A DNA stretch of 21,993 nt, taken from a virus. Positions 6,849 to 21,929 of this stretch are shown one piece after another. The position numbers were made by a program, and so were the translations under genes. The stretch spans positions 2,643 to 24,635 of the IMG/VR virus record IMGVR_UViG_3300000115_006353; one strand, 5' to 3'. A model generated the notes under the pieces. That model saw only the letters and a list, made by a program, of their open reading frames with translations. It made no database searches and had not been told where the DNA came from. Each line of letters opens with the position of its first letter. Position 1 is the first letter of the stretch.

Positions 6849-7596
6849 GTGCTTTTTGACAATATCAAACTCACCCTATATCCCGGTTGCTGAAAAATTA
6901 GTTTCGTCAGCATTCAAATACCATCCAGAAATTTTATTTGAATTTTATGGAATAAATTTATCTGAAAATGATATCATCAAACTTAAAAAAATGCACAATA
7001 ATTTAAAAGTGTATAATCACGAAAAGGAATTTGATGATGTCTCGTTAGAGGCTCTATATGCATCTAGTATTTGCAGACCTTTGTTTATAAAAAAATCAAT
7101 GGATGAAGAATATGATGTTTTGTATCTCGATGGTGACATGGTGATTAAAGACAATCTCGATGACCTTTTTTATTTTGTTGATGATTATGATTTTGTAGTA
7201 AACCCTTCTAGGAGTATTAAATCGAAAGAGTTTCGATGTAATGCTGGTTTGATTTGGATTAAAAATAACAGAAAAACTATTAATATTGTTAATGAATGGC
7301 AAGATGTCACAGTGAACTTTTGTGAGGATGGTAATCCTGATATTGGTTTGGCTTGGTATTCTGAACAACATGCATTGGATAAAATGATTGAGAAATATCA
7401 TTTCGACAAAAATGAAATTACTTATGCTTCATTTTTAAATGATCATCTTTCCGAGAGAAAAGAAAATCGTAATTCATTAATTGTTCATAACAAAGGTCCG
7501 AAGGATAAACCGGATTCATATCCGGGTAAAGCAAAAAGATTTCGGGCTAAAAAAGGAACTAAACTTGATGTAGAGATGGGAATTAGTTTTAAATGA
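6838..7596 (+). CDS. GT8-like (GT-A) glycosyltransferase
   Basis: Two in-frame ATGs exist at 6832 and 6838. I prefer 6838 because AGAGGAG (6823-6829) is eight bases before it but only two before 6832. The product is 252 aa, and the gene overlaps its neighbour by 11 bases. The GT8/nucleotide-diphospho-sugar transferase pattern is clear: YDVLYLDGDMVIKDNLDDLF (residues 92-111) with the metal-binding DGD, FRCNAGLIWIKN (132-143), and a late metal or acceptor histidine in VHNKGPKDKP (216-225). GT8 enzymes such as LPS galactosyl- and glucosyltransferases are retaining and build LPS outer cores. There is no signal or membrane segment. Confidence 0.82.
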   Translation: MSDKCFLTISNSPYIPVAEKLVSSAFKYHPEILFEFYGINLSENDIIKLKKMHNNLKVYNHEKEFDDVSLEALYASSICRPLFIKKSMDEEYDVLYLDGDMVIKDNLDDLFYFVDDYDFVVNPSRSIKSKEFRCNAGLIWIKNNRKTINIVNEWQDVTVNFCEDGNPDIGLAWYSEQHALDKMIEKYHFDKNEITYASFLNDHLSERKENRNSLIVHNKGPKDKPDSYPGKAKRFRAKKGTKLDVEMGISFK

Positions 7597-8243
7597 AAGT
7601 TAATGAATTTTATATTGGTGACATCGAAAATAAGCTACATACATGTGTGAGAAAAAAAAGAGAACGGGCAGTCTATAAAGACGGTTCATTTTATTATAAA
7701 ATTTGGGTTCCTGAATGGACAAAATCTGAAGTTGTAAAGGTTGCATTAGACTGTGGATTTTATGATGATTTTATTTGTCCTGTAATGGCAGGAACTATAT
7801 ATGATGACACTGGTCAAAGAGGCTATATATTAAAAGAGGGTGTAGAAATTGTTCAGCATGGCATAAAAGACTGGAGGGGTTTGATTGAGCATACTACAAA
7901 AAAACAGCGATTAGATTTTTTGTCTCGGGTGATTGAAAACTCTTTAAGAGTTCATGGAACTTTTTTGGACTTCTTTCCTTCCAACCTAGTATTGTTTGAG
8001 AATAAAATATCATTCATTGATTTGGATAGTTTTGGTAGTTTTGGTTTTGTATTTGATGGTAAAAAGGAATGGTATGAGAAATTTTCATTAGATGCATGGT
8101 GGAAGCCGCTCGAAACATCAAGACGAGACTTAAATTTATCATTGCGTGGATACTTAAAGGAGTGTTTAGATATTGAATATGATGGTGTCATAGATAGTAA
8201 AGATGATTTTTACACTATCAGTGATATTTTATCAAAAAACTGA
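7593..8243 (+). CDS. Protein kinase-like fold phosphotransferase (LPS kinase/APH-like)
   Basis: The 216-aa protein carries a diverged kinase catalytic signature. HGTFLDFFPSNLVL (residues 121-134) matches the catalytic loop of aminoglycoside phosphotransferases and LPS core kinases (H, then D126-x4-N131). FIDLDSFGSF (141-150) corresponds to the metal-binding DFG strand (D143/D145). An upstream lysine (K36 in YYKIW) could be the ATP-anchoring residue, and the E/Q-rich segment near 81-89 would be the hinge. The length is short for APH but close to small bacterial sugar kinases such as WaaP/RfaY types. It probably phosphorylates a glycan sugar. A pseudokinase or a GT-associated binding module cannot be excluded. 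It overlaps the GT8-like gene by ATGA. Confidence 0.6.
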   Translation: MKVNEFYIGDIENKLHTCVRKKRERAVYKDGSFYYKIWVPEWTKSEVVKVALDCGFYDDFICPVMAGTIYDDTGQRGYILKEGVEIVQHGIKDWRGLIEHTTKKQRLDFLSRVIENSLRVHGTFLDFFPSNLVLFENKISFIDLDSFGSFGFVFDGKKEWYEKFSLDAWWKPLETSRRDLNLSLRGYLKECLDIEYDGVIDSKDDFYTISDILSKN

Positions 8244-8254
8244 TTGGAATTTTT

Positions 8255-8566
8255 ATGATATATGCAATAGATATAGACGGAATACTTTGTAATGAAACTT
8301 TAGGTGATTATGAAAACTCGGTGCCTAATCAAAAGAGTATTGATGTGGTTAATAAACTTTATGAAGATGGAAACACTATTAAGATATTTACTGGAAGGGG
8401 TTCTGCGACCGGAATTGATTGGAGGGAATTTACTGTCAATCAATTAGATGATTGGGGCGTGATGTATCATGAATTGATTTTAGGCAAACCTGTTTGTGAT
8501 ATTATTGTAGATGATAAAGCAATAAGTTTAAATGAATGGGTTGGTGGGAGAGTGCGACTTGATTGA
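8255..8566 (+). CDS. Small HAD-superfamily phosphatase
   Basis: This capless HAD protein of only 103 aa has every catalytic motif: nucleophile and acid aspartates in AIDIDGIL (D6, D8), motif II IFTGRG (residues 44-49), a conserved lysine in LGKPVCD (K78), and the metal-binding acid pair in IIVDDKAI (D86-D87). The pattern resembles small HAD proteins found in capsule clusters (BcbF/LcbC-like). It lies directly before the KdsA-type gene, so a plausible role is dephosphorylation of the ulosonate 8-phosphate, the step KdsC performs. KdsC is larger (about 190 aa) and the direct match is weak, so this role is inferred from position. The gene ends inside the start region of the next (overlap at 8559-8566). 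Confidence 0.8.
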   Translation: MIYAIDIDGILCNETLGDYENSVPNQKSIDVVNKLYEDGNTIKIFTGRGSATGIDWREFTVNQLDDWGVMYHELILGKPVCDIIVDDKAISLNEWVGGRVRLD

Positions 8567-9353
8567 TTATAATTCTTTGTTAAATGTGGAGAAGCCATTT
8601 TTAATTTCTGGTCCTTGTGTGATAGAAAGCGAAGACCATTGCATGTTTATGGCTGAGAATATTAAGAATATCGCCGATAAACTAGGCATCGAATATATAT
8701 TTAAAGCATCGTTTGATAAAGCGAACAGAACAGCCTTAACTAATTATAGAGGATTGGGTTTAGACAAATCTTTAAAGATTTTTTCTAGAATTAGGGACGA
8801 ACTTAAAATTCCCGTCTTAACAGACTTTCATGAGTCGTGGCAAGCTAGATCATTACAGGATTGTGTTGATGTGTTGCAAATTCCTTCTTTTTTATCTAGG
8901 CAAACAGATTTACTTGTAGCAGCCGCAGAAACGGGGAAGATTGTGAATATTAAAAAAGCTCAATTTGTTTCTGGGCATGACACTAAAAAAATGGTTGATA
9001 AGTGTATAGACAGTGGAAATGGTTCGGTTTTTTTAACAGAGCGCGGAAACACTTTTGGTTATGGTGACTATATTGTTGATTTTAGGAATCTAGTTGTCAT
9101 GAGTGAATATGCTCCGGTTATTTTTGATGTGGGTCATTCTTTGCAAAATGGGTGTTCTGGGGGAAGTTCTGGTTCAAAAATTCAGTTTGCTGAACCATAT
9201 CTTCGCGCCGCTTTAGCGATTGGTGTTAATGGAATTTTTATGGAGGTTCATGATGATCCAGAGAATGCCCTGTCTGACGGCACTACGAGTATTAAATTAA
9301 GTTCATTATATGAATTGTTGAATTCAAATATGGATGTTTGGAGGACTAGATGA
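8559..9353 (+). CDS. kdsA: KdsA-type 3-deoxy-octulosonate-8-phosphate synthase
   Basis: This aldolase-type enzyme condenses a five-carbon aldose phosphate (arabinose 5-phosphate in the classical case) with PEP. I choose TTG 8559 because GGGAGAG (8546-8552) lies just before it and the product, 264 aa from MIDYNSLLNV, aligns with KdsA N-termini. ATG 8532 is the alternative, adding nine residues. Strong family motifs are LISGPCVIES (residues 15-24), FKASFDKANRT (48-58), LTDFHE (87-92), IPSFLSRQTDL (108-118), VNIKKAQFVSG (129-139), ERGNTFGYGD (161-170), FDVGHSLQ (189-196), and FMEVHDDPENALSDG (227-241). C20, H193, E229 and D240 match the four metal ligands of the metal-dependent class (Aquifex-like), unlike the metal-free E. 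coli enzyme that has Asn at the Cys position. No SAF domain is present, so it is not NeuB. Confidence 0.93.
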   Translation: MIDYNSLLNVEKPFLISGPCVIESEDHCMFMAENIKNIADKLGIEYIFKASFDKANRTALTNYRGLGLDKSLKIFSRIRDELKIPVLTDFHESWQARSLQDCVDVLQIPSFLSRQTDLLVAAAETGKIVNIKKAQFVSGHDTKKMVDKCIDSGNGSVFLTERGNTFGYGDYIVDFRNLVVMSEYAPVIFDVGHSLQNGCSGGSSGSKIQFAEPYLRAALAIGVNGIFMEVHDDPENALSDGTTSIKLSSLYELLNSNMDVWRTR

Positions 9354-10360
9354 GATTACTATTAGATACGATTGATACTAAAATTATAAGTAAATATTAT
9401 AAACTTGGGTTACTTTTTGGTGTAACGACAAATCCAACCTTAGCAAAGAGGTTTGGCATGTCTGATGATATTGATATGATCAAGAAAATCCGAGATGTTA
9501 TGCCCATTGGAGAAATTCATGTGGAGGCATTCGGCGATAATGCGATTGAAATTATTAATAACGCAAAGCGAATCCGGCATGATTCTCTTGACAATAACCT
9601 AGTATTCAAGGTTCCATTTAGCCCAAGTGGAGTTCAAGCTGTAAAGTTTTTAAAGAGAGAGGGTCTTAGAACTAATCTGCATCTAATATTTTCTCTCAAT
9701 CAATCTCTGCTTTCTAGTTCTGTTGACACTGACTATATTTGCCCCCTAGTTGGAAGGCTTGACGATGTTGGTCATGATGCATTTGACAATCTAGAAAAAA
9801 TTATTAATTCATATAAAAAGTTCGACCATATCCATACTAAAATTATGGTATCGAGTGTTCGTCACCCGCAGCATGTTGAACGTGCATTTATGATTGGAGC
9901 CGATGTTGTAACAGTTCCAGCCGCAGTCTTAGACAAGATGTTTAGTCACCCATTAACATCTTCTGGTTATAAGGAATTTGAGGATGATATAAGAACTATG
10001 CAAACTATTCATGAGTCTGACATTGATAATGATTGCGTGGTTGATTCAACTACGTCATTGAAGGATTGTGTAGTTCACATGACAAAATATAAAAAAGATA
10101 GTGTTGTGAGTTGTGTTGATGGTGAAACCGGAATTTATACATTGGGCGATTTTAAGAGACTTATGGTAGATGGCGATTTCAATATTTCAGAACATCTCGA
10201 TGAACCAATTGCTAAGTTTATGAATTTTGATGGTGTTAGTTTAGACTCTTCGTCTACTTATGAAGATGTATTTTCTGTTTTTGATAATAACAATATTCGA
10301 CATATTGCAATACTGTCCAATAAAAATGTTGTTGGTGTTTTGACTAAAGAAGAATTGTGA
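9350..10360 (+). CDS. Transaldolase/FSA-like domain fused to C-terminal CBS pair
   Basis: This is a two-part protein of 336 aa. Residues 1 to about 220 form a small transaldolase/fructose-6-phosphate-aldolase-like barrel: LDTIDTKIISKY, FGVTTNPTLAKR (23-34), the Schiff-base lysine K87 in VFKVPFSPSGVQAVKFLKREG, TNLHLIFSLNQ (108-118), YICPLVGRLDDVGHDAFDN (129-147), KIMVSSVRHPQHVERAFMIGAD, and VTVPAAVLDKMFSHPLT. Residues about 232-336 look like two CBS motifs, ending IRHIAILSNKNVVGVLTKEEL. CBS pairs regulate enzymes by nucleotide binding and also occur on KdsD, which makes arabinose 5-phosphate. Directly downstream of kdsA (ATGA overlap, GGAGG at 9340-9344), it could supply the aldose phosphate for KdsA. 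Free-standing TalC is a known phage gene; this fusion is unusual. Confidence 0.85.
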   Translation: MRLLLDTIDTKIISKYYKLGLLFGVTTNPTLAKRFGMSDDIDMIKKIRDVMPIGEIHVEAFGDNAIEIINNAKRIRHDSLDNNLVFKVPFSPSGVQAVKFLKREGLRTNLHLIFSLNQSLLSSSVDTDYICPLVGRLDDVGHDAFDNLEKIINSYKKFDHIHTKIMVSSVRHPQHVERAFMIGADVVTVPAAVLDKMFSHPLTSSGYKEFEDDIRTMQTIHESDIDNDCVVDSTTSLKDCVVHMTKYKKDSVVSCVDGETGIYTLGDFKRLMVDGDFNISEHLDEPIAKFMNFDGVSLDSSSTYEDVFSVFDNNNIRHIAILSNKNVVGVLTKEEL

Positions 10361-10373
10361 TTTGTGGTGACAA

Positions 10374-11270
10374 ATGAAAATATTTTTCAACCAAAAACCA
10401 GTTTCCGGTCCTTGGGGCGGCGGCAATAAATTATTATCTTCATTAGTTTCTTCATTAGCTGATAAAGTGACTTTTGATTTAACTGACGATGTTGATATTA
10501 TTTTTTGTATGGACCCACGACCAAACCATCAAGGGCTTTGGTATCAAGACTATTTGAATCATAAAACTAAACATGGATCGAAGATAGTTCAAAGGGTTGG
10601 TGATGTGGGAACACACGGAAAACCTCAACTTACACAGCTTATCAGGGATAGTGTGGTTTATTCTGATTTTTGTATTTTTCCGAGCCAATGGGCATCTGAT
10701 TATATTGATGATCAAATGAATTCGATAATTATTTCAAATGCTCCATTAGATTGTTTCTATGAAGAGAGGACTCGTCGAATTGTTCCAAATCAGCCCGTTC
10801 GTGTAGTTACGCATCATTGGTCTGATAATATAAGAAAAGGGTTTGATCTATATTCTGAGTTTGCTAGGATAAATCCTTTTGATGTTGAATTTACATATAT
10901 TGGGAGATACTCTAGCGACTATAATTTACAGGGAATAAACTATATTCCACCAAAGGATAAAAGTGAGTTAAAGACTATTCTACCAACATACGATATATAC
11001 CTTACGGCTTCCGAAGAAGAAGCGGGAGCAAATCATGTTTTAGAGGCGATGGCATCAGGTCTTCCGGTTCTCTATAGAGATTCTGGTGGTAGTATCGTTG
11101 AATATTGTTCCGATTATGGGTTGGAATATGATTCTATAGATTCTTTAATTCGCCAGTTATCCAAGTGTGTTGAAGATTATGAAAAATATAAAACGAAAGT
11201 TTTAAATTACAATGAACGCATTGAAAATGTAATTGAAAGGTATTTGGGTATTATATTACATGGTAGATAA
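10374..11270 (+). CDS. GT4-type glycosyltransferase
   Basis: This retaining GT-B transferase (298 aa) has an N-terminal glycine-rich motif SGPWGGGNKLLSSLV (residues 11-25), a feature of GT4 enzymes in which this loop contacts the sugar donor. ITS C-terminal domain has the donor signature ASEEEAGANHVLEAMASGLP (212-231), with E216 and E224 spaced by seven. RVGDVGTHGKP (74-84) and FPSQWASDYI (102-111) are further conserved stretches. It starts 13 bases after the transaldolase fusion and overlaps the next gene by 11 bases. The short N-terminal domain is typical of phage GT4 proteins. Specificity is unknown; its place after the ulosonate-type genes makes it one candidate to transfer that sugar, although CMP-sugar transferases usually belong to other families. 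Confidence 0.86.
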   Translation: MKIFFNQKPVSGPWGGGNKLLSSLVSSLADKVTFDLTDDVDIIFCMDPRPNHQGLWYQDYLNHKTKHGSKIVQRVGDVGTHGKPQLTQLIRDSVVYSDFCIFPSQWASDYIDDQMNSIIISNAPLDCFYEERTRRIVPNQPVRVVTHHWSDNIRKGFDLYSEFARINPFDVEFTYIGRYSSDYNLQGINYIPPKDKSELKTILPTYDIYLTASEEEAGANHVLEAMASGLPVLYRDSGGSIVEYCSDYGLEYDSIDSLIRQLSKCVEDYEKYKTKVLNYNERIENVIERYLGIILHGR

Positions 11271-12021
11271 CATTCCGGTTTACATATTCTCCACGCAAGA
11301 AAGAACCAAAGACCTTTGTGTTTATTCCTACAAAAAACTTGGATTTGAAAATGTTGTGGTATTAGAGGATTCTAGTTCGTTCAAGGACAAATACATTGAA
11401 TTTGCCGAACATGCATCTTCTAGCGGATTGGATTATTTTATTAGAGCGGATGCTGATTTGATTCCATTTGATGGAATTTTAAAAATTGTAAGCAAAATAA
11501 AATCAGGAATTCCCTATTGGATTGAGGGGCAATATTTTGACTATTTTATGAATAAGCGCAGGCATGGAACTCCACATCTCATCCCAAAAGTGGCAGTCGA
11601 TGTATTGGCTAATAATCATGGCATTATATCAAATTCAAAAAAACCAGAAAGTGAATTTTCTAGGTATCTTGTTAACAATGATTTAGTAAAGCTGAAGTCT
11701 GTAAAAGTTATAACCAGTTTACATGAATATGAACAATATCCCAGCAAGGTTTGCAATTCTTTTCTTAATCGTCTTAAACGAAGCCACCGGCATTTATATG
11801 ATTTATCCTTTATTGAGAATTATGCTCCTGAAATATATAAGAAAGCAATAAAACATGCTATTGATATATACAATTCGGGAAATTTAGAACATCCAGATAG
11901 TATGAATTTTTTAGACTTTAGCGATTTGGATATTGGGTTTAGTGATATTTCCGAACACCAATTGAGTGCAGTTTATACTGACTTGAAATACATATACTCT
12001 TTAGTGAATCGGATTGTGTAA
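11260..12021 (+). CDS. Probable GT-A glycosyltransferase
   Basis: I choose ATG 11260 (MVDNIPVYIF). An upstream TTG at 11233 is in frame but would add a stretch without a strand-like start. The product is 253 aa. It begins with a beta strand IPVYIFSTQERTKDL, followed by GFENVVVLED (residues 28-37), and has a DxD-type metal-binding motif FIRADADLIPFDG (60-72). This arrangement resembles small GT-A transferases. The C-terminal half is not recognisable and rich in Tyr, His and Lys. The gene ends in TAATG with the next. The glycosyltransferase call rests mainly on the DAD motif and the cluster context. Confidence 0.6.
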   Translation: MVDNIPVYIFSTQERTKDLCVYSYKKLGFENVVVLEDSSSFKDKYIEFAEHASSSGLDYFIRADADLIPFDGILKIVSKIKSGIPYWIEGQYFDYFMNKRRHGTPHLIPKVAVDVLANNHGIISNSKKPESEFSRYLVNNDLVKLKSVKVITSLHEYEQYPSKVCNSFLNRLKRSHRHLYDLSFIENYAPEIYKKAIKHAIDIYNSGNLEHPDSMNFLDFSDLDIGFSDISEHQLSAVYTDLKYIYSLVNRIV

Positions 12022-13142
12022 TGGCTGAAAAAAGTTTTTGTTTCTATTATGTAAACACTACTGATATACAAGAATATACTGGGCTGATATTAGAATGCGT
12101 TCGCGCAAACATTCATGCACATATTATGGTCTTTGACATCACTTCAGAGAAAAGGAATTTTTATTATTATTCATTGCATGATTTTGAAGATTATTTTGAC
12201 AGGGTATTTTCGTTGAATGGTCTAGAAAAAAAATATTCAATTCACAAATATACAAAGAACGACGAGACGAAGTATTTAAGCGATTATCAAAAAATTAATC
12301 CAAATTTAGTGTTTACTAGAATTGTTAAGAATTTGAAATATGCTTATTGGACACCAGTTGTTGAAAAAAATAAGTCTGTGGTATTTTTGTGGGAGCCCCA
12401 ACAAACCCACCCAAAATATGATAATTTCTTAACGCTTTCCAGATATGTTAATGGTGTTATAGGGTTTATGAATAATAATACTGCTGATTATTCTGGGCTA
12501 TTGAGGTATGTGGGTGCTGGACACACACCTTGTCTGGGAGATGATATTGTTGAATTTTGTAAAAAAGAAAAAACTTGCTTTATACCAGAAACTTGGGCTA
12601 GAAACCCCCAAGATAAAAAAAATAATTTACCGTTTGTTTTAGAGGTTGTGCAATCATTAAAATCAATGGGATATTCTATAGCGTATAAAATGCGAGAGAA
12701 AGGGTATCCTGCACAAGACAGGTATGATAAAAATTATGTCAATGAAGTTGAGTCTTTGGTCGATCTGGTTATAACGAAAGACTTGCACTACCCATCTAGT
12801 TTGTATTATTTGATTGAAAATTGTGATTTAACTTGCACATTTAATGTTACAACAACCACATTGGATGCAATTGATTTGTCTAAAAATTCTTTTGTATTTT
12901 TATCAAAACATTTAAATAATCATTACAGGTCAAAGCTAAAAGAAAAACATCCATTATCTTGGGGTATTCCATATTTTTATGATAATTTGAAAAATACAAC
13001 AAATCTCTATGATCAAAAATATGAAACACAATCAGTAAAAAGTTTTTTGGTCGATAATGAATTTAGAGAAAGAGCCCAGACAAGTTTTGTGTTGAATGAC
13101 AATCCACATAGGGACTTGATTCAAAGGCTACTACATATATGA
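12021..13142 (+). CDS. Hypothetical protein, possible GT-B-like transferase
   Basis: I do not recognise a defined family in this 373-aa protein. The most telling segment is residues 256-296: HYPSSLYYLIENCDL, then FNVTTTTLDAIDLSKNSFVFLS. It resembles the C-terminal donor domain of capsule synthesis or CDP-glycerol-type GT-B enzymes, where a serine/threonine stretch is followed by a helix and a value such as FVFLS. An earlier FLWEPQQTHPKY (122-133) and YAYWTP might belong to the N-terminal Rossmann domain. It has no membrane segment. TAATG couples it to the preceding gene; a 24-base gap follows, the largest in the cluster. A glycosyltransferase is likely by context but unproven. Confidence 0.55.
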   Translation: MAEKSFCFYYVNTTDIQEYTGLILECVRANIHAHIMVFDITSEKRNFYYYSLHDFEDYFDRVFSLNGLEKKYSIHKYTKNDETKYLSDYQKINPNLVFTRIVKNLKYAYWTPVVEKNKSVVFLWEPQQTHPKYDNFLTLSRYVNGVIGFMNNNTADYSGLLRYVGAGHTPCLGDDIVEFCKKEKTCFIPETWARNPQDKKNNLPFVLEVVQSLKSMGYSIAYKMREKGYPAQDRYDKNYVNEVESLVDLVITKDLHYPSSLYYLIENCDLTCTFNVTTTTLDAIDLSKNSFVFLSKHLNNHYRSKLKEKHPLSWGIPYFYDNLKNTTNLYDQKYETQSVKSFLVDNEFRERAQTSFVLNDNPHRDLIQRLLHI

Positions 13143-13166
13143 GCTATCAGTGGGAGATATTATATA

Positions 13167-13814
13167 ATGAAAGCAGTGACATTTATTCGGTTAGATAGTA
13201 AGCGTGTTCCTAGAAAAAGTGTTTCGCCTTTGCAGGGGCGACCTTTGTTTGATTACTCTTTATCGACAATGAATAAGGTAGAAGGAATTGACGAGATACT
13301 TGTATTTGCTTCTGAGGATTTTATAAAAGATACCGTGAGTCCTGATGTTGATTATACCTTTGTTCAAAGGGATAAGTTTCTAGATGGTGACGTAACCTTC
13401 AATACTGTTATGACAGAAGCAATTAAGCATATAGACAGTGAATTTATTTTGTATTTTTGCGTCACTTCTCCTTTTATTACAAGGGAAGTGGTCGATGATA
13501 TTATTGATAATGTTGAATCTGGGGAATATGATTCTGGTCTTGCGGTAAAGGCTTCCCAATCTTTTTGCTGGTATGATGGGAAACCTTTAAATTATGATCC
13601 AACAAAAACTATACCTTTCACGCAGGATCTCAATCCAGTTTTAGTGGAGACTAGCGGTCTTTATGTTTTTAAGAAAGAATTGTTTGAAAATTATGGAAGA
13701 CGAATTGGAGATAATCCATATCTCAAACAGGTTGATGAAGTTGTGGGTCATGATATAGATTACCCAATTGATTTTACTCTAGCAGAATATTATTTGGAGA
13801 AGGGTTTAGTATGA
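13167..13814 (+). CDS. neuA-like: CMP-sugar (acylneuraminate-type) cytidylyltransferase
   Basis: This 215-aa enzyme would activate a nonulosonic or octulosonic acid with CTP to give a CMP-sugar. The N-terminal nucleotide loop FIRLDSKRVPRKSVSPLQGR (residues 6-25) matches the NeuA family (SKR-P-K pattern), and so do LFDYSL (27-32), FCVTSPFITREV (97-108), GLYVF (164-168) and the C-terminal DIDYPIDF (196-203), the metal-binding acidic motif. KdsB proteins instead carry a STRLPGKPL loop, so the sequence is NeuA-like rather than KdsB-like. Together with the KdsA-type enzyme, it suggests a CMP-activated ulosonic acid. It starts after GGGAGA (13152-13157) and overlaps the SDR gene by ATGA. Confidence 0.85.
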   Translation: MKAVTFIRLDSKRVPRKSVSPLQGRPLFDYSLSTMNKVEGIDEILVFASEDFIKDTVSPDVDYTFVQRDKFLDGDVTFNTVMTEAIKHIDSEFILYFCVTSPFITREVVDDIIDNVESGEYDSGLAVKASQSFCWYDGKPLNYDPTKTIPFTQDLNPVLVETSGLYVFKKELFENYGRRIGDNPYLKQVDEVVGHDIDYPIDFTLAEYYLEKGLV

Positions 13815-14515
13815 TGGAATTATTCTCGGTTAAAGATAAAGTTGTAATAGTGACAGGATCGTCTGGTGGAAATGGTTCGGCAATATCAGATGGATTGGAA
13901 AAACTTGGTGCTATTGTCGAAAGGGCGGATTTGCCGGAATGTGATGTCACAAAAAACGAAGATCTGGACGATCTTGTTAGAAGCGCATTGCGCCATTCAG
14001 GCAAAATTGATGGGTTGGTGAATTGTGCAGGAGTTACTTTTGTCAATGATTTGTTTGAGTACACAGAAGATGATTGGGATAAAACTTACCGTATAAATCT
14101 AAAAGCTCCTTACGAATTATCCAGAAAAGCAGCAAGACATATGAAAATTGGTGGAGGTTCTATTGTCAACATAACAAGTCTAAATTCTGAGATGGCATTT
14201 CCCAATAATCCGGCTTATGTATCGACGAAGGGTGGATTGAAGCAACTGTCGAAGTCTCTCGCTTTAGATTTGGGTAAGTATGAAATCCGTGTTAACAATC
14301 TTGGACCCGGCTATATAAGAACTAATATGACAAGGGGCAGTTGGAAAAATCGAAGGCAAGAAATAGAAGACCGCACCATACTTGGTAGGTGGGGCGAATC
14401 TGAAGATTTGGTCGGAACAGTTGTGTTTTTATTATCATCAGCCTCTACCTATATAACAGGGCAGGATATTTATGTTGATGGTGGTTATCTTGCGAAGGGA
14501 ATGAAGTGCGAGTAG
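13811..14515 (+). CDS. Classical SDR oxidoreductase
   Basis: This NAD(P)-dependent short-chain dehydrogenase (234 aa) carries all family marks: cofactor loop VTGSSGGNGSA (residues 14-24), DV at 45-46, NCAG at 71-74, N96, catalytic S123 within NITSLNSE, and Y136-x3-K140 in YVSTK, followed by PGYIRTNMT and a C-terminal YITGQDIYVDGGYLAKG. It begins ATGA over the cytidylyltransferase stop. SDRs often sit beside NeuA-type synthetases in surface-sugar clusters and presumably oxidise or reduce a sugar precursor; the exact substrate is unknown. A second SDR follows immediately, overlapping by ten bases, so the pair may act as an epimerising oxidation-reduction couple. Confidence 0.9.
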   Translation: MMELFSVKDKVVIVTGSSGGNGSAISDGLEKLGAIVERADLPECDVTKNEDLDDLVRSALRHSGKIDGLVNCAGVTFVNDLFEYTEDDWDKTYRINLKAPYELSRKAARHMKIGGGSIVNITSLNSEMAFPNNPAYVSTKGGLKQLSKSLALDLGKYEIRVNNLGPGYIRTNMTRGSWKNRRQEIEDRTILGRWGESEDLVGTVVFLLSSASTYITGQDIYVDGGYLAKGMKCE

Positions 14516-15201
14516 TTATAACGGGCGGCGCAACAGGAATAGGTAGATCGTGTGTTAATGCTTTATTATCCAATGATATTGATTTAATTTATTTTAGTAG
14601 TGTTGATGCAGCTAAAGAGTTGGAGAGTTGTCGAGTAAAGACACACCGAGTTGATGTGACGAATGAAAGTGCTGTTGCTACTTTTTTTGATTCGATTGAG
14701 CCTTTTGATGTTTTGATAAATAATGCTGGAGGAAACGTGTCTTTCAGCCCAACAACAGAATATGATAAAGATGATTGGATTGAAACATTTAACTTAAACA
14801 CGATGAGTGTATTTTTGATGTGTAAGTATGGGATTCCGATTATCAATGATGGTGGTAGAATAATAAATATAAGTTCTATATCAGCAACTACAGGGGGTGC
14901 CCCCGGAGGAATGGCATATGCTGCGTCAAAGGCGGCAGTAAATACTATGACAAAATCTTTATCCAAAGAACTTGCCGAAAAAAATATTTGTGTAAATGCA
15001 ATTGCGCCGGGAATTGTGTGGACAAAGCAGCATGAAAAATTTTCAAGTCGGGAGTATTATAATACCTTAATAGAAAAAGTGCCTATGGGTCGTGACGGAA
15101 AGCCGGAAGATATTGCTGGTGTTGTTGAATTTTTGTGTTCTGATAAAAGTTCTTATATCACGGGTCAGGTGTTTGGAGTTAATGGAGGAATGTTGATGTG
15201 A
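14506..15201 (+). CDS. Classical SDR oxidoreductase (FabG-like)
   Basis: The gene starts at GTG 14506, with AAGGGA at 14495-14500 as ribosome-binding site, and overlaps the previous gene by ten bases. The 231-aa protein has the cofactor loop VVITGGATGIGRS (residues 3-15), NNAG (72-75), serine S123/S124 in NISSIS, and the active Y138-x3-K142 in YAASK, then an APGIVWT loop and a C-terminal SYITGQVFGVNGG. It is a sister of its upstream neighbour but clearly distinct in sequence, so this is not a recent duplication. A FabG-like name is only structural; within this cluster a sugar substrate is more likely than fatty acid synthesis. Confidence 0.9.
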   Translation: MRVVITGGATGIGRSCVNALLSNDIDLIYFSSVDAAKELESCRVKTHRVDVTNESAVATFFDSIEPFDVLINNAGGNVSFSPTTEYDKDDWIETFNLNTMSVFLMCKYGIPIINDGGRIINISSISATTGGAPGGMAYAASKAAVNTMTKSLSKELAEKNICVNAIAPGIVWTKQHEKFSSREYYNTLIEKVPMGRDGKPEDIAGVVEFLCSDKSSYITGQVFGVNGGMLM

Positions 15202-15857
15202 GTAAATATCTTTCAGTTATGTACGATGAAAATGTTCGACCTTATACGGATTATCCCATGAAGCTGGCGAAGCATCTTTTTGACAAATTCAACCTCAAGC
15301 CCGGAATGAAGATGTTGGAGCCGGGTGTTGGTCGAGGCGAAATGTTGCAAAATTTTAAAAGTCTTGGGCTAATCCCCTACGGTATGGATATTTCTGATGA
15401 AGCCCCTTCATATCTACCTGAAATTCCGATTGAAGTTGGTGACATTGAAAAGGATGGATTGCCATATTCTGATAACTTTTTTGATGTTATATATTCTAAA
15501 TCTTTTTTGGAACATATGTATCATCCAGAAAATTTTATGCAGGAGTCTTATCGAGTTTTAAAGCCCGGAGGAATTCTTATAAGTCTTGTGCCAGATTGGG
15601 ATACTCAGTATCGTACTTACTATGATGATTATACTCATCGAAGACCATTTACTAAAATATCATTAGACACTATTCATAAAGTATATGGTTTTAATGATGT
15701 AAATGTTTTTAAGATGAGAGAACTTCCTTTGGTGTGGAAGTATCCGATTCTAAATGTTCCGTGCGATATAATTGGTCCATTGACACCAATACGTTCACAA
15801 AATAAATTGTTTAAGTGGTCTAGAAGACTAATGTTAGTTGCGAGTGGTGTAAAATGA
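15198..15857 (+). CDS. Class I SAM methyltransferase (Methyltransf_11-like)
   Basis: The start is GTG 15198 in a GTGA overlap, with a fine GGAGGA at 15184-15189. The 219-aa protein shows SAM motif I MLEPGVGRGEML (residues 39-50), an acidic residue after the second strand in GMDISDEA (D64), the segment VGDIEKDGLPYSDNFFDVIY (80-99), FLEHMYHPENFMQESYRVLK, and LKPGGIL (121-127). The conserved THRRPFT (147-153) is typical of sugar- or quinone-type methyltransferases of this group. There is no transmembrane helix. Methylation of a sugar or an oligosaccharide end is the likely role. It overlaps the radical SAM gene by ATGA. Confidence 0.87.
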   Translation: MSKYLSVMYDENVRPYTDYPMKLAKHLFDKFNLKPGMKMLEPGVGRGEMLQNFKSLGLIPYGMDISDEAPSYLPEIPIEVGDIEKDGLPYSDNFFDVIYSKSFLEHMYHPENFMQESYRVLKPGGILISLVPDWDTQYRTYYDDYTHRRPFTKISLDTIHKVYGFNDVNVFKMRELPLVWKYPILNVPCDIIGPLTPIRSQNKLFKWSRRLMLVASGVK

Positions 15858-16669
15858 ATATTTCAAAATTCAAAAAAATAAGAATAGAAATCAATTCTGA
15901 TTGCAATAGGAAGTGTGTATTCTGTCCAAGAGGGACCGATGTTAGTAGATGGGTGGATGGAGGACAAGACACAAAAAGGCAAAAATTGCTTACTAAATTT
16001 ATGAGTACGGAAAATGTAATTTCCTTAATTGATCAAAATGTTGATCAAGGATTTAATGCAGAAGTTTCGTTTGTTTTTTATAATGAGCCTGTGTCTGATG
16101 ATCGGTTGATATATTTTAGTGAATATGCAAAAAGCCGAAAACTTAGAGTTGTTGTAACCACAAATGGGGATGCAATGTTACAGGACAGTGAATTGGCGAA
16201 AGAAGTATTTAGAGTGAATGATTTGGTTTGCATATCTCTTTATGATTATAAGGATATGGAGGGAAGAAGTAAACTTATGGGTGAGTGGGATGCATATCTT
16301 TCTAGTCTTGGGATACGGAAAGATGCGTATAGGTTGACGGGGGAGTATTTTAATTTTGGCAACAGGGCGGGTCTTATTGATAGAAAAAATAAATTTATGG
16401 GCAAAAATCATAAATTGGATGACGAGGTTCCGCTTACAGCAGACTGTAGTAAGATACATTCTAAGTTGAATATACGTTATGATGGAGAGGTTCCGATTTG
16501 TTGTGATGACGCTCATGTTCGGAATTCTTTGGGAAACGTCTTAGATACTTCTATTTCTGAGGTTTGGTATGGTGATCGGATGAAACGGGCTACTGAAATA
16601 TTGTCGAGAGGAGCCCGTTCTGAAATGATTCCTTGTAGCACATGTGTTCGCTCTATTGTTCCATTATAG
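15854..16669 (+). CDS. Radical SAM protein with SPASM-like C-terminus
   Basis: This 271-aa protein has the radical SAM motif CNRKCVFC (C17, C21, C24; CX3CX2C), which binds the [4Fe-4S] cluster that cleaves SAM. The middle contains FVFYNEPVSDDR (residues 73-84), the position of the usual GGEP strand, and VVTTNGD (100-106). The C-terminal part carries more cysteines (C198, C216-C217, C261, C264) in a SPASM/twitch-like arrangement with LNIRYDGEVPICC and SLGNVLDTSISEVWYG, implying an auxiliary Fe-S cluster. Some radical SAM enzymes with these domains act on peptides or sugars, such as epimerases, dehydratases or oxidases. The substrate is unknown. In this cluster a carbohydrate is the simplest idea. 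Weak ribosome-binding site, ATGA overlap upstream. Confidence 0.85.
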   Translation: MNISKFKKIRIEINSDCNRKCVFCPRGTDVSRWVDGGQDTKRQKLLTKFMSTENVISLIDQNVDQGFNAEVSFVFYNEPVSDDRLIYFSEYAKSRKLRVVVTTNGDAMLQDSELAKEVFRVNDLVCISLYDYKDMEGRSKLMGEWDAYLSSLGIRKDAYRLTGEYFNFGNRAGLIDRKNKFMGKNHKLDDEVPLTADCSKIHSKLNIRYDGEVPICCDDAHVRNSLGNVLDTSISEVWYGDRMKRATEILSRGARSEMIPCSTCVRSIVPL

Positions 16670-16679
16670 TGGAGGGTAT

Positions 16680-17609
16680 ATGTTTAAGTTATATTATGAC
16701 AGAACTAGATTTTCTTATATAGATAATGAGTTGAGGTCTACAGGATTAGTTCAGTATTCGGGTTCAGAAAAGGTTAAAAAAACAGCAACTCTTTATGGAA
16801 AAGACCTGAATGTTTATATTGACACTTCTGATGGCGTGAATGAAGATTTGGAATCTAATGAGTATTGCGGTAGGGTTTTTAAAATTATTGAAGAGACAAA
16901 AGGAAAGCCTTTCTTATTTTTTAAGTCTGCATTTTCTCCAACGAGAAGTTTAGATATTGTTCGTGCGGCAGAGGAAAATAATGGAACTGTCTTGCCGTTT
17001 TTTAAGATGCCGTTTAATTCTAATTTTAATTCTTTGCGTAGTAGACGAGATGTCTTGATAGAAAAATCACGATCTACTAAAAAGGAATATGATATTGGTT
17101 TTTATGCAGGAACTTCTAAGTATACCTATCCTAAACCAAGTCAATCCAATCCCCTGATCTCATGGCCTGATGTAATGTTCGGATCAGATGGAAAAGATAT
17201 GGGATTTTACGATAATTATAGTAGACCAAACATGTTTAATAGAATTAAAGACAGTAAATTTTCTATGGATCACAAGATGGTTTCTTATGATGAATATATA
17301 GAGAGTAGTCATTTATGTAAAACGATAATCAATCCTCCGGGTATTGGTGAATATACGTCTCGTATGCTTGACCATTGCTTTCTTGGTAATTGTATTGTGA
17401 TTAGAAAGACTACATATGATAATGGTTATTCTTGGAAAGACTATATTCCCGAGGTTGATTTTGAAACAGATGGATGGGAAGATGAATATCAAACTATAAT
17501 TGATAACCGTTTAGAGTGGGGAGACAAGGCAAAGGATTACTTTGATTTGTATTGGACACCAGAAGCAATTGTTGATTATTTTGTCGAGAAGGTTGAAGAA
17601 TTTTTATGA
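16680..17609 (+). CDS. Hypothetical protein, possible exostosin/GT-B-like transferase
   Basis: ATG 16680 is preferred to an in-frame ATG at 16644 because GGAGGG (16671-16676) sits just before it. The 309-aa protein is not clearly recognisable. The best hint lies at residues 216-262: IINPPGIGEYTSRMLDHCFLGNCIVIRKTT and then WKDYIPEVDFE. Its layout resembles the donor domain of exostosin-like GT47 and related GT-B enzymes: a small-residue loop, a helix with conserved R and a re-emerging strand. The N-terminal half (FFKMPFNSNF at 107-116, FYAGTSKYTY at 141-150) has a plausible nucleotide-domain strand. No membrane segment. It is flanked by two radical SAM genes, and ends in an ATGA overlap. Confidence 0.55.
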   Translation: MFKLYYDRTRFSYIDNELRSTGLVQYSGSEKVKKTATLYGKDLNVYIDTSDGVNEDLESNEYCGRVFKIIEETKGKPFLFFKSAFSPTRSLDIVRAAEENNGTVLPFFKMPFNSNFNSLRSRRDVLIEKSRSTKKEYDIGFYAGTSKYTYPKPSQSNPLISWPDVMFGSDGKDMGFYDNYSRPNMFNRIKDSKFSMDHKMVSYDEYIESSHLCKTIINPPGIGEYTSRMLDHCFLGNCIVIRKTTYDNGYSWKDYIPEVDFETDGWEDEYQTIIDNRLEWGDKAKDYFDLYWTPEAIVDYFVEKVEEFL

Positions 17610-18667
17610 GTTTTTTGAAGAGTAATAAAGTATTACATCACCCAGAAAAATTTGGGGAATGGCTTAGAACTGGAGATACTTCTGGTCCAATTACAGTCAA
17701 GATTGATTTGACAAACGTATGCAATCACAATTGCCCCGGCTGTATTGATTTTGATTTGATTGAAAATGATAACAATCATCTTAGTGTTGAGTTGTTGTCT
17801 ACACTTCTTGACGATTTAAAATTATGTGGTGTTTCTGGTATCAATTATACTGGAGGCGGCGAACCAACTGTGCATAAGAAGTTTGATGAAATCATTAGAA
17901 TGACTCATTCTAAAGGATTTGAGATTGGGCTCATATGCAACGGATCTAGATTTCATAAGTGGAATATGGAAGAATTGCTTTCTATGTTTACATGGATTCG
18001 TGTTTCTCTCGATGCATACGATAAAGATACTCACAAAAGAACACATGGGCTTGCAGCTAATTTTGATCTAACCATCACAAATCTTAAAGAGCTTGTTCGG
18101 ATCAAAACTGAACAAGGTTTAGAAACCACACTGGGTGCAGGTTACATTACCAATCAACACCAAGATATGGATAGGCAATTATATAGATTTATAGAGGTAT
18201 GCAAAACTGTTGGAATAGACTACTCTCAACTTAGACCAAGTTTTGGGTTTCTTTATGATTATGAGTCGATATCTCAGATTGAGTGGAATGCAATATTCGA
18301 TGAGGCAAAGTCATATCAGGATGATGCGTTTAGTGTAATAATTGATGAGGGTAAATTTAATAAAATTATTAACGGCGAGGGAACCACTAGAAGTTATACT
18401 CGATGTCACGCTCAGGCGTTTAAGGCAACGTCAATAACTGCAACTGGAGATGTTTATATATGCTGTTCATTGTCGGGCGTGAAATCTGGATGGATCGGTA
18501 ATATTAAAGACGAGTCGTTCATTGATATATGGCAAGGACCAAAAAGAAATGAGTTAGTAGATACTCTTGATGTATCAAAGTGTCCTCATTTGTGTGTGGG
18601 TGATAATTTAAATGAATATCTGGACGATTTTATAAAGATTCAGCCAGAACATAAGAATTTTTTATAG
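17606..18667 (+). CDS. Radical SAM/SPASM-type protein
   Basis: This 353-aa protein has a full radical SAM core: CNHNCPGC (C39, C43, C46), the SAM-binding YTGGGEPTVH (residues 81-90), LICNGSRF (109-116), and VSLDAYDKDTHKRTHG (133-148). At the C-terminus it has C267, C286-C287, C326 and C330 around SITATGDVYICCSLSG and WIGNIKDESFIDIWQGPKR (296-314), which is a SPASM/twitch layout nearly parallel to the gene at 15854. Two such proteins in a phage glycan cluster are uncommon; a sugar or peptide modification is possible but no precursor peptide is visible. It is coupled to the previous gene by ATGA and followed by a gap of nine bases containing AGGAG. Confidence 0.88.
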   Translation: MSFLKSNKVLHHPEKFGEWLRTGDTSGPITVKIDLTNVCNHNCPGCIDFDLIENDNNHLSVELLSTLLDDLKLCGVSGINYTGGGEPTVHKKFDEIIRMTHSKGFEIGLICNGSRFHKWNMEELLSMFTWIRVSLDAYDKDTHKRTHGLAANFDLTITNLKELVRIKTEQGLETTLGAGYITNQHQDMDRQLYRFIEVCKTVGIDYSQLRPSFGFLYDYESISQIEWNAIFDEAKSYQDDAFSVIIDEGKFNKIINGEGTTRSYTRCHAQAFKATSITATGDVYICCSLSGVKSGWIGNIKDESFIDIWQGPKRNELVDTLDVSKCPHLCVGDNLNEYLDDFIKIQPEHKNFL

Positions 18668-20795: not shown

Positions 20796-21929
20796 ATGGC
20801 ACGCAAGGCATCGAAGATTCCGAAGGCATATGAGCTTCAGGGATCGGAGCCCGATTGGGACGATCAGTATGACCTTAAAGACGAGGATCTGAACTCTCGT
20901 TTTGGTAATGCTCTTAACTGGTACAATTACAACTACTCCAATAATAATGCTCAGGACTTTCTGACAAAGTATGTTAGTTCAAAGAATGATGCTGCTGCGA
21001 TCTCTGCGCTCGACGCATCGAGTATCAAGACGACTTATGGTTTTGTTGCGAAGATGGCATCGAACGGTCTTGAGTTTCCCTCTGTCCTTGAGCGATACAA
21101 GATCAAGTTGGATGAATATGTTGCCAAGTTGATTGTCGATGGCAATGAGGCTCTTGGGAAGAAGCAGGTAAAGAAGCAGGCAAAGAGTTCTGCTCCTGTT
21201 GTTTCTATTCAAGAACGCACACGCAATGCTGCGAGTGAACACATTGGTCACATCGAAGGTGAGCTTGATGATTTCATTGAGTCGAACTGCAAGAGCAAGT
21301 TCAGCACTTTTGATTATCTTCAGCAGGCTGAAATTAAGGGTGGTTATATGAAGTATTTCATTGACCACTTTCAGCCGATCTACGAAGAATTGCAGGAAGC
21401 ACTTCGTGGAGATGATGATCAATTGGTTGAGGGTTATGCTTTTCTGACCAAGCCCCGTAAACGTAAGCTGATTGCTTTTCTTGCGAACATCATCAACGAT
21501 TGTCGCGAATGGCAGAAGCAGAGTCGAGGAAAGCGCAAGGCTCGCAAGCGCAAGGTCAAGTCACCGAAGGATCTTGTGAAGTCATTGAACTTCAAGAAGT
21601 CTGACGAAGACTTTGGTATTGAGAGTGTTAAGTCTTCTGATATCATTGGTGCAACTCAGGTCTGGGTGTTTGATACCAAAACGCGATTCATGCACAAGTA
21701 TATTTCTGATATTGGTATGTCTGTGAAGGGAAGCACACTCAAAGAGTTTGATGCTGATCAGTCATTCAAGAAGAAGATTCGTGAATCGTATTGCAAGAAG
21801 GTTCTTGATGACGTTGTGAAAGGTGGTAAGGTTAAGTTGAAAAAGTCCCTTGTGAATATTGCAGCCAAGGAGGTTGCAGTCACCGGACGCATTGGTAAGG
21901 AAATGGTAATTGTGAGGGTTGTGAAATGA
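20796..21929 (+). CDS. Conserved-type phage hypothetical protein, basic (377 aa)
   Basis: I do not recognise a domain. The protein starts at ATG 20796 after GAAAGG (20781-20786) and has its own promoter. The N-terminal third is acidic and aromatic (DWDDQYDLKDEDLNSRFGNAL, WYNYNY). A highly basic run (KQSRGKRKARKRKVK) lies around residues 239-253. Before it is a helical region (about 170-235). The C-terminal third has beta-like segments. This layout of acidic start, helices and basic linker resembles nucleic-acid-associated proteins of T4-like phages, but that is only analogy. G+C is clearly higher than in the cluster: 31 of 60 bases in 21481-21540. It overlaps the next gene by ATGA. Confidence 0.75.
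   Translation: MARKASKIPKAYELQGSEPDWDDQYDLKDEDLNSRFGNALNWYNYNYSNNNAQDFLTKYVSSKNDAAAISALDASSIKTTYGFVAKMASNGLEFPSVLERYKIKLDEYVAKLIVDGNEALGKKQVKKQAKSSAPVVSIQERTRNAASEHIGHIEGELDDFIESNCKSKFSTFDYLQQAEIKGGYMKYFIDHFQPIYEELQEALRGDDDQLVEGYAFLTKPRKRKLIAFLANIINDCREWQKQSRGKRKARKRKVKSPKDLVKSLNFKKSDEDFGIESVKSSDIIGATQVWVFDTKTRFMHKYISDIGMSVKGSTLKEFDADQSFKKKIRESYCKKVLDDVVKGGKVKLKKSLVNIAAKEVAVTGRIGKEMVIVRVVK

Follow-up and report, generated by a model that had tools for sequence, protein, structure and literature searches.

A transaldolase-like aldolase clade linked to KdsA in marine phage contigs suggests an unfamiliar route into CMP-activated ulosonic acids

Enzymes of the KdsA family require an aldose phosphate and PEP, and to our knowledge known bacteria rely on arabinose 5-phosphate isomerase to make Kdo-type sugars. 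A phage locus in which a kdsA-type gene is coupled to a transaldolase-like gene raises the question of where its aldose phosphate comes from. We analyzed such a locus in a window of 21,993 nucleotides, corresponding to bases 2643-24635 of the 24,635 bp phage fragment IMGVR_UViG_3300000115_006353, and compared it with related phage contigs, bacterial genomes and characterized enzymes.

A KdsA cassette in a phage surface-glycan cluster

Directly upstream of the window lie a ThyX fragment, a class II ribonucleotide reductase (NrdJ), a small zinc-ribbon-like protein and RuvC, the last identified by profile (phrog_159) and ThyX and the reductase by inspection of their protein sequences; ThyX, the reductase and RuvC point to a phage backbone. 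The genes of the window form a surface-glycan cluster comprising several glycosyltransferases, methyltransferases, an NAD-dependent epimerase, short-chain dehydrogenases (SDRs), radical SAM/SPASM proteins and a cupin, and no tRNAs were present in the window. A Kdo-kinase identity for 7593-8243 was tested and was unsupported.

Four genes had been singled out by the initial annotation, namely a HAD phosphatase at 8255, a KdsA at 8559, a transaldolase-CBS fusion at 9350 and a NeuA-type synthetase at 13167, and family profiles and alignments confirmed all four in place (Table 1). The first three were indeed contiguous and coupled, as it had also stated, with HAD and KdsA overlapping by 35 nt (8 nt if KdsA starts at TTG 8559, which has a better ribosome site than 8532) and KdsA and the fusion joined through ATGA. 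The NeuA-like gene follows 2.8 kb downstream of this trio, and the three genes between had been described as transferase-like, which held for the GT4-type enzyme at 10374 and not for those at 11233 and 12021, neither of which matched any family. The latter product, possibly a glycosyltransferase, gave a structure prediction with a pLDDT of 33 and had no viral relatives by pattern scan.

Table 1. Coordinates of the cassette and neighboring genes in the window
Feature	Position	Strand	Evidence
Small capless HAD phosphatase, EcbF/BcbF-like, predicted ulosonate-phosphate phosphatase	8255..8566	+	TIGR01689 1.3e-6
KdsA-type metal-dependent PEP condensing enzyme	8532..9353	+	TIGR01362 330.4 bits (curated cut-off 314)
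Transaldolase/FSA-like Schiff-base aldolase domain of fusion	9350..10003	+	PF00923 139.8 bits
CBS pair fused to transaldolase, weakly KdsD-like	10004..10360	+	PF00571 2.7e-7, 31.3 bits
GT4-type glycosyltransferase	10374..11270	+	PF00534 3.3e-7
Protein without family match, between cassette and NeuA	11233..12021	+	Family searches
Protein without family match, between cassette and NeuA	12021..13142	+	Family searches
NeuA/PseF-like cytidylyltransferase, predicted CMP-ulosonate synthetase	13167..13814	+	PF02348 8.4e-11
Short-chain dehydrogenase	13811..14515	+	PF13561 9.9e-56; ATGA overlap with NeuA
Second short-chain dehydrogenase, overlapping the first	14506..15201	+	PF13561 3.3e-53

The HAD protein, 103 residues long, contained the DxD, Thr and Asp-Asp motifs and lacked a cap; a solved relative was 9iqw (1e-15 with the cassette profile), and a score of 0.6 bits against E. 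coli KdsC indicated no sequence kinship. The window KdsA fell within a clade of six phage proteins with support of 100/99, in a tree with rough support values and a long branch for the KdsA of another phage contig, L246. Aligned to the Aquifex KDO8P synthase 1fwn, it retained the metal ligands Cys29, His202, Glu238 and Asp249 together with the KANR motif, which was also kept in a 70-row KdsA alignment and which we take to be the KdsA motif for the arabinose 5-phosphate (A5P) acceptor, thus favoring an A5P-like acceptor. By contrast, all six cassette KdsAs have Q[NK]-GCSGGSSGS at the beta7-alpha7 (L7) loop in place of the canonical QxPGGxGxxSGG, and the loop was also altered in the remote-type KdsA of L246; as the canonical Pro-Gly is missing, the acceptor may differ from A5P.

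When the NeuA-like protein was searched as a profile with its homologue from the phage contig L004, the best solved relatives were PpNeuA/CMAS at 4e-16 and 6e-10, compared with 0.0027 for KdsB. The protein scored 18.9 bits against the KdsB family TIGR00466, under its curated cut-off of 155.2, and 45.6 bits (6.4e-12) against the PseF family TIGR03584, under the cut-off of 205.7.

The active site of the transaldolase domain and its CBS tail

The TAL_FSA domain of the fusion scored 171.7 bits on TIGR00875, under the equivalog cut-off of 245.95. Its barrel gave a good model with the T. maritima transaldolase 1vpx as the closest fold, and structural alignment showed ~34-36% identity to 1vpx and 3r8r. 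In an alignment to E. coli FsaA, the clade to which the domain belongs retained the equivalents of Asp6, Thr26, Lys85, Arg134 and Ser166, the Schiff-base Lys being K87 in the window protein, and had Glu at FsaA position 59, which is the transaldolase state. Conservation of these six residues suggests that the domain is catalytic.

Despite this conservation, four changes were shared by all clade members compared, namely Thr109 to His, Tyr131/Phe to Leu, Ala/Ser129 to Cys and Ala165 to Ser (H111, L133, C131 and S168 in the window protein), whereas all 17 other FSA/TalC proteins compared had Thr109, Phe/Tyr131, Ala/Ser129 and Ala165, with the four changes found in none. This 'His/Leu' clade was monophyletic with support of 100/98 and phage-only among the sequences compared; its member from contig L281 was read from sequence and left out of the tree. 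In FSA, the catalytic water sits in a site formed by Gln59, Thr109 and Tyr131 (PMC13259622), and two of these three residues, Thr109 (His) and Tyr131/Phe (Leu), are replaced in the clade. The proton-shuttle site has thus been rebuilt and the Schiff-base Lys kept, and the clade likely catalyzes a changed reaction. The initial annotation had taken the transaldolase as an ordinary one, a view that the replaced catalytic-water residues and the distinct clade contradict. The fold and Schiff-base Lys are thus shared with E. coli FsaA and with T. maritima and B. subtilis TalC, but the four substitutions, the link to KdsA described below and, in the window, the CBS fusion set the clade apart.

The CBS pair, a type of regulatory module, was fused to the aldolase in the window only, no other clade member carrying one. 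The tail matched TIGR00393 (kpsF) at 1.7e-6 over 218-331, and its best solved match was the CBS of an arabinose 5-phosphate isomerase, 4o9k, at a weak E of 0.0025. On a KdsD-CBS profile it scored 28 bits, compared with 152 for E. coli KdsD itself and, as best single domains, 18 for CorC and 12 for ProV; the two CorC domains summed reached 27 bits, whereas the 28 bits of the tail came from one continuous stretch. In addition, the tail has GIYTLGDFKRL at the position of the KdsD G[IV]FTDGDLRR. The resemblance to the KdsD CBS pair is weak and suggestive only, and on this likeness the fused pair may sense the end product, the CMP-sugar.

Association of the aldolase clade with KdsA

The gene set recurred in other marine phage contigs, all of them metagenomic and partial, which argues that the grouping is more than chance; no isolate carrying the cassette was found among annotated phages. 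L004 (172,940 bp) has a run of two GT29 sialyltransferase-like genes, NeuA, KdsA, HAD, two methyltransferases and the aldolase, and contains a second pair consisting of a DAHP-synthase-like and a cytidylyltransferase gene. The position of its NeuA homologue, directly upstream of KdsA-HAD, supports the earlier assignment of the more distant NeuA-like gene of the window to the same pathway. A tight KdsA-HAD-aldolase operon was found in the T4-like contigs L005, L068-L073 and L162, and where flanks could be read, one part of a split DNA polymerase gene lies on either side of it. The contigs L006 and L249 start inside or just before the aldolase; the split-polymerase contigs are close kin and were counted as one lineage. 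Most of the KdsA-HAD-aldolase contigs are fragmentary and show no cytidylyltransferase, which, like the three genes that separate NeuA from the trio in the window, speaks against the complete pathway. In L154 (36 kb), KdsA of the cassette clade and HAD lie between a true KdsB 5 kb upstream (268 bits on NF009905, cut-off 255) and the aldolase 7 kb downstream, and in L246 and L281 the aldolase is followed directly by a KdsA of remote type.

Every contig with a His/Leu aldolase and a readable neighborhood also had KdsA, of two very different types, and KdsA was the only partner common to all six lineages (the window, L004, the split-polymerase group, L154, L246 and L281). HAD adjoined KdsA in every cassette contig having KdsA of the window's clade. 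Conversely, a transaldolase was present in none of 25 other phage contigs with KdsA (30-353 kb), and no such gene lay within 8 kb at 61 phage KdsA loci. SIS/KdsD was likewise found in none of 23 viral records, and the record of the window has no SIS domain, an absence we rejected as evidence because other phage KdsA loci are also without KdsD. Conservation of the grouping across several phage lineages bears out the initial reading of the locus as a route to a CMP-3-deoxy-ulosonic acid that uses non-orthologous proteins in place of KdsC, KdsD and KdsB.

A bacterial source of the cassette was not found in our scans. Relatives of the clade were absent from a scan of genome contigs, and no transaldolase lay within 8 kb of the 80 nearest bacterial KdsAs among the matches listed. 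The exact aldolase motif pattern occurred in 0 of 398 Pseudomonadota genomes, a weak scan as the pattern was without Leu CTN codons at one position, and in 0 of 395 Bacteroidota genomes with the Leu codons complete, the two scans covering ~800 genomes from two phyla. Viral matches to the pattern numbered at least 12, a count that misses Leu CTN at one position and the L281 protein.

Proposed route and identity of the sugar

Taking these observations together, we propose, with a probability of roughly 0.6, that the product of the cassette is a CMP-activated 3-deoxy-2-ulosonic acid and that its aldolase supplies the aldose phosphate, A5P being the leading candidate, in place of KdsD; the assigned gene functions and the gene associations support this pathway well. 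The aldolase would most likely form the aldose phosphate in a Schiff-base aldol reaction that uses a changed donor, the leading candidate being the reaction of glycolaldehyde with glyceraldehyde 3-phosphate to D-arabinose 5-phosphate. KdsA would then condense the aldose phosphate with PEP, the small HAD would remove the phosphate and the NeuA-like enzyme would add CMP, yielding Kdo, or a sugar closely related to it, for a glycan whose synthesis the phage directs. We infer the supplier role from KdsA being the sole common partner and from the ability of FSA-type enzymes to make A5P, as E. coli FSA and TalB F178Y do from glycolaldehyde and glyceraldehyde 3-phosphate in engineered pathways (PMC9947464). 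Given that A5P formation by FSA relies on an active site with Tyr131 and Thr109, both of which are replaced here, the reaction of the phage aldolase may be another.

In the bacterial Kdo pathway KdsD-KdsA-KdsC-KdsB, as in the cassette, PEP condensation by a KdsA-family enzyme is followed by a phosphatase step and then CMP activation, but the cassette has the altered transaldolase(-CBS) for KdsD, the EcbF-like HAD for KdsC and the NeuA-like enzyme for KdsB. Phage KdsA-KdsB modules (61 loci, and that of cyanophage S-SCSM2R) are similarly phage-borne genes for CMP-Kdo-type sugars, yet contain KdsB and often a cupin, lack a transaldolase and have KdsAs in separate clades. Phage ulosonate genes as such are already known, as passages of one report place NeuA and KdsA among the polysaccharide genes of a marine viral genome, and those passages describe no link to a transaldolase or HAD (PMC5332604). 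What is new is a small aldolase clade that is linked exclusively to KdsA and whose active site is unseen in the characterized relatives compared. It suggests that the starting sugar phosphate is made by a route that nature is not known to use, points to a second means of supplying the synthesis of Kdo-type sugars and broadens the view of marine phages as makers of their own surface sugars.

A more tentative extension, to which we give less than even odds, is that the clade is a natural A5P-forming aldolase dedicated to KdsA and, in one phage, feedback-controlled by a KdsD-type CBS pair. If so, Kdo would be reached through the formation of a carbon-carbon bond, with no need for KdsD. The synthetic A5P-dependent glycolaldehyde pathway also employs an FSA/TAL-type enzyme as A5P aldolase, but was engineered in E. 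coli, whereas the phage route would be natural and feed KdsA; FSA mutants already serve as A5P aldolases and engineers want better ones (PMC9947464), so a natural A5P aldolase would be useful to them.

Among the alternatives, the one that survives best, although we consider it unlikely, is that the sugar is a different ulosonic acid, for which the aldolase would deliver another aldose phosphate (such as erythrose 4-phosphate, or a pentose phosphate of an unusual kind obtained by cleaving an octulose phosphate), the altered-loop KdsA would condense it, and SDRs would tailor the product before or after CMP activation. Room for such a sugar is left by the altered L7 loop in both aldolase-linked KdsA types, by a NeuA-like rather than KdsB-like enzyme in the window and L004, and by the SDRs coupled to NeuA in the window, the first of which may modify the sugar; the second pair of genes in L004 points the same way. 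However, the KANR motif is kept, no SDR was seen in the L004 stretch examined, and the same KdsA clade with HAD stands beside a true KdsB in L154, which favors Kdo for that phage and undercuts the earlier argument that a NeuA-like enzyme means a sugar other than plain Kdo.

That the aldolase is instead an ordinary TalC boosting the pentose phosphate pathway as in cyanophages, with KdsA nearby through chance or hitchhiking, appears improbable. Cyanophages commonly carry TalC, which matched 500 phage records, and cyanophage TalC was placed beside the His/Leu clade in the aldolase tree (89/93), but the catalytic-water residues are changed in every clade member and in no TalC compared, and the link to KdsA holds in every readable contig, for two unrelated KdsA types, while the 25 other KdsA phage contigs are without a transaldolase. 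No more credible is a plain top-up of CMP-Kdo from host A5P, as must occur in other phages with KdsA-KdsB and without KdsD or a transaldolase, in which a weak or regulatory aldolase domain would only modulate KdsA, a role that its regulatory CBS pair would fit but that the six conserved catalytic residues, and the absence of CBS from all other clade members, argue against.

In our proposed pathway, the CMP-activated product plausibly decorates a surface or the virion. A search of the window for GT29 homologues gave none; in L004, the GT29-like genes adjoin NeuA-KdsA-HAD, and since the plant GT29 protein RCKT1/MGP2 has been proposed as a CMP-Kdo transferase (PMC11288761), these phage neighbors fit the use of a CMP-ulosonate.

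Cassette site in a split DNA polymerase gene

The DNA polymerase gene of one T4-like marine phage group (contigs L005, L068, L070, L072 and L073) is split, and a KdsA-HAD-TAL operon lies between its two parts, with the polymerase N-part followed by one small gene, the cassette and then the polymerase part containing the YVDTDS motif. In other phages, this split site is occupied by homing endonucleases.

Features at and around phage KdsA cassettes
Feature	Position	Remark
KdsA-HAD-TAL operon	L005:4877-9559; L068:1251-5934; L070, L072, L073	in split DNA polymerase gene
Two GT29 sialyltransferase-like genes	L004:3907-5156	immediately upstream of NeuA; family match
Short cytidylyltransferase and DAHP-synthase-like enzyme	L004:9574-10916	adjoins KdsA cassette
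Two radical SAM/SPASM proteins	window 15854-18667	within glycan cluster
phrog_11903 protein	window 20796-21929	function unknown

Window genes around the cassette

The window gene immediately preceding HAD (7593-8243) contained a kinase-like stretch, 'HGTFLDFFPSN...IDLDSFG', and matched neither any Pfam family or PDB chain nor the Kdo-kinase family. Many other marine phage loci likewise have radical SAM genes close to KdsA, and distant relatives of the phrog_11903 protein are found within a few kb of KdsA in many other phage loci.

Neighbouring genes in contig L004

In the 172,940-bp contig L004, a 2-hydroxyacid dehydrogenase precedes the cytidylyltransferase and DAHP-synthase-like pair, which possibly constitutes a second CMP-ulosonate (heptulosonate) pathway. 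Separately, genes resembling the L004 GT29 pair, as judged by reading only, occupy the same position in the phage locus L234 (5993-7984).
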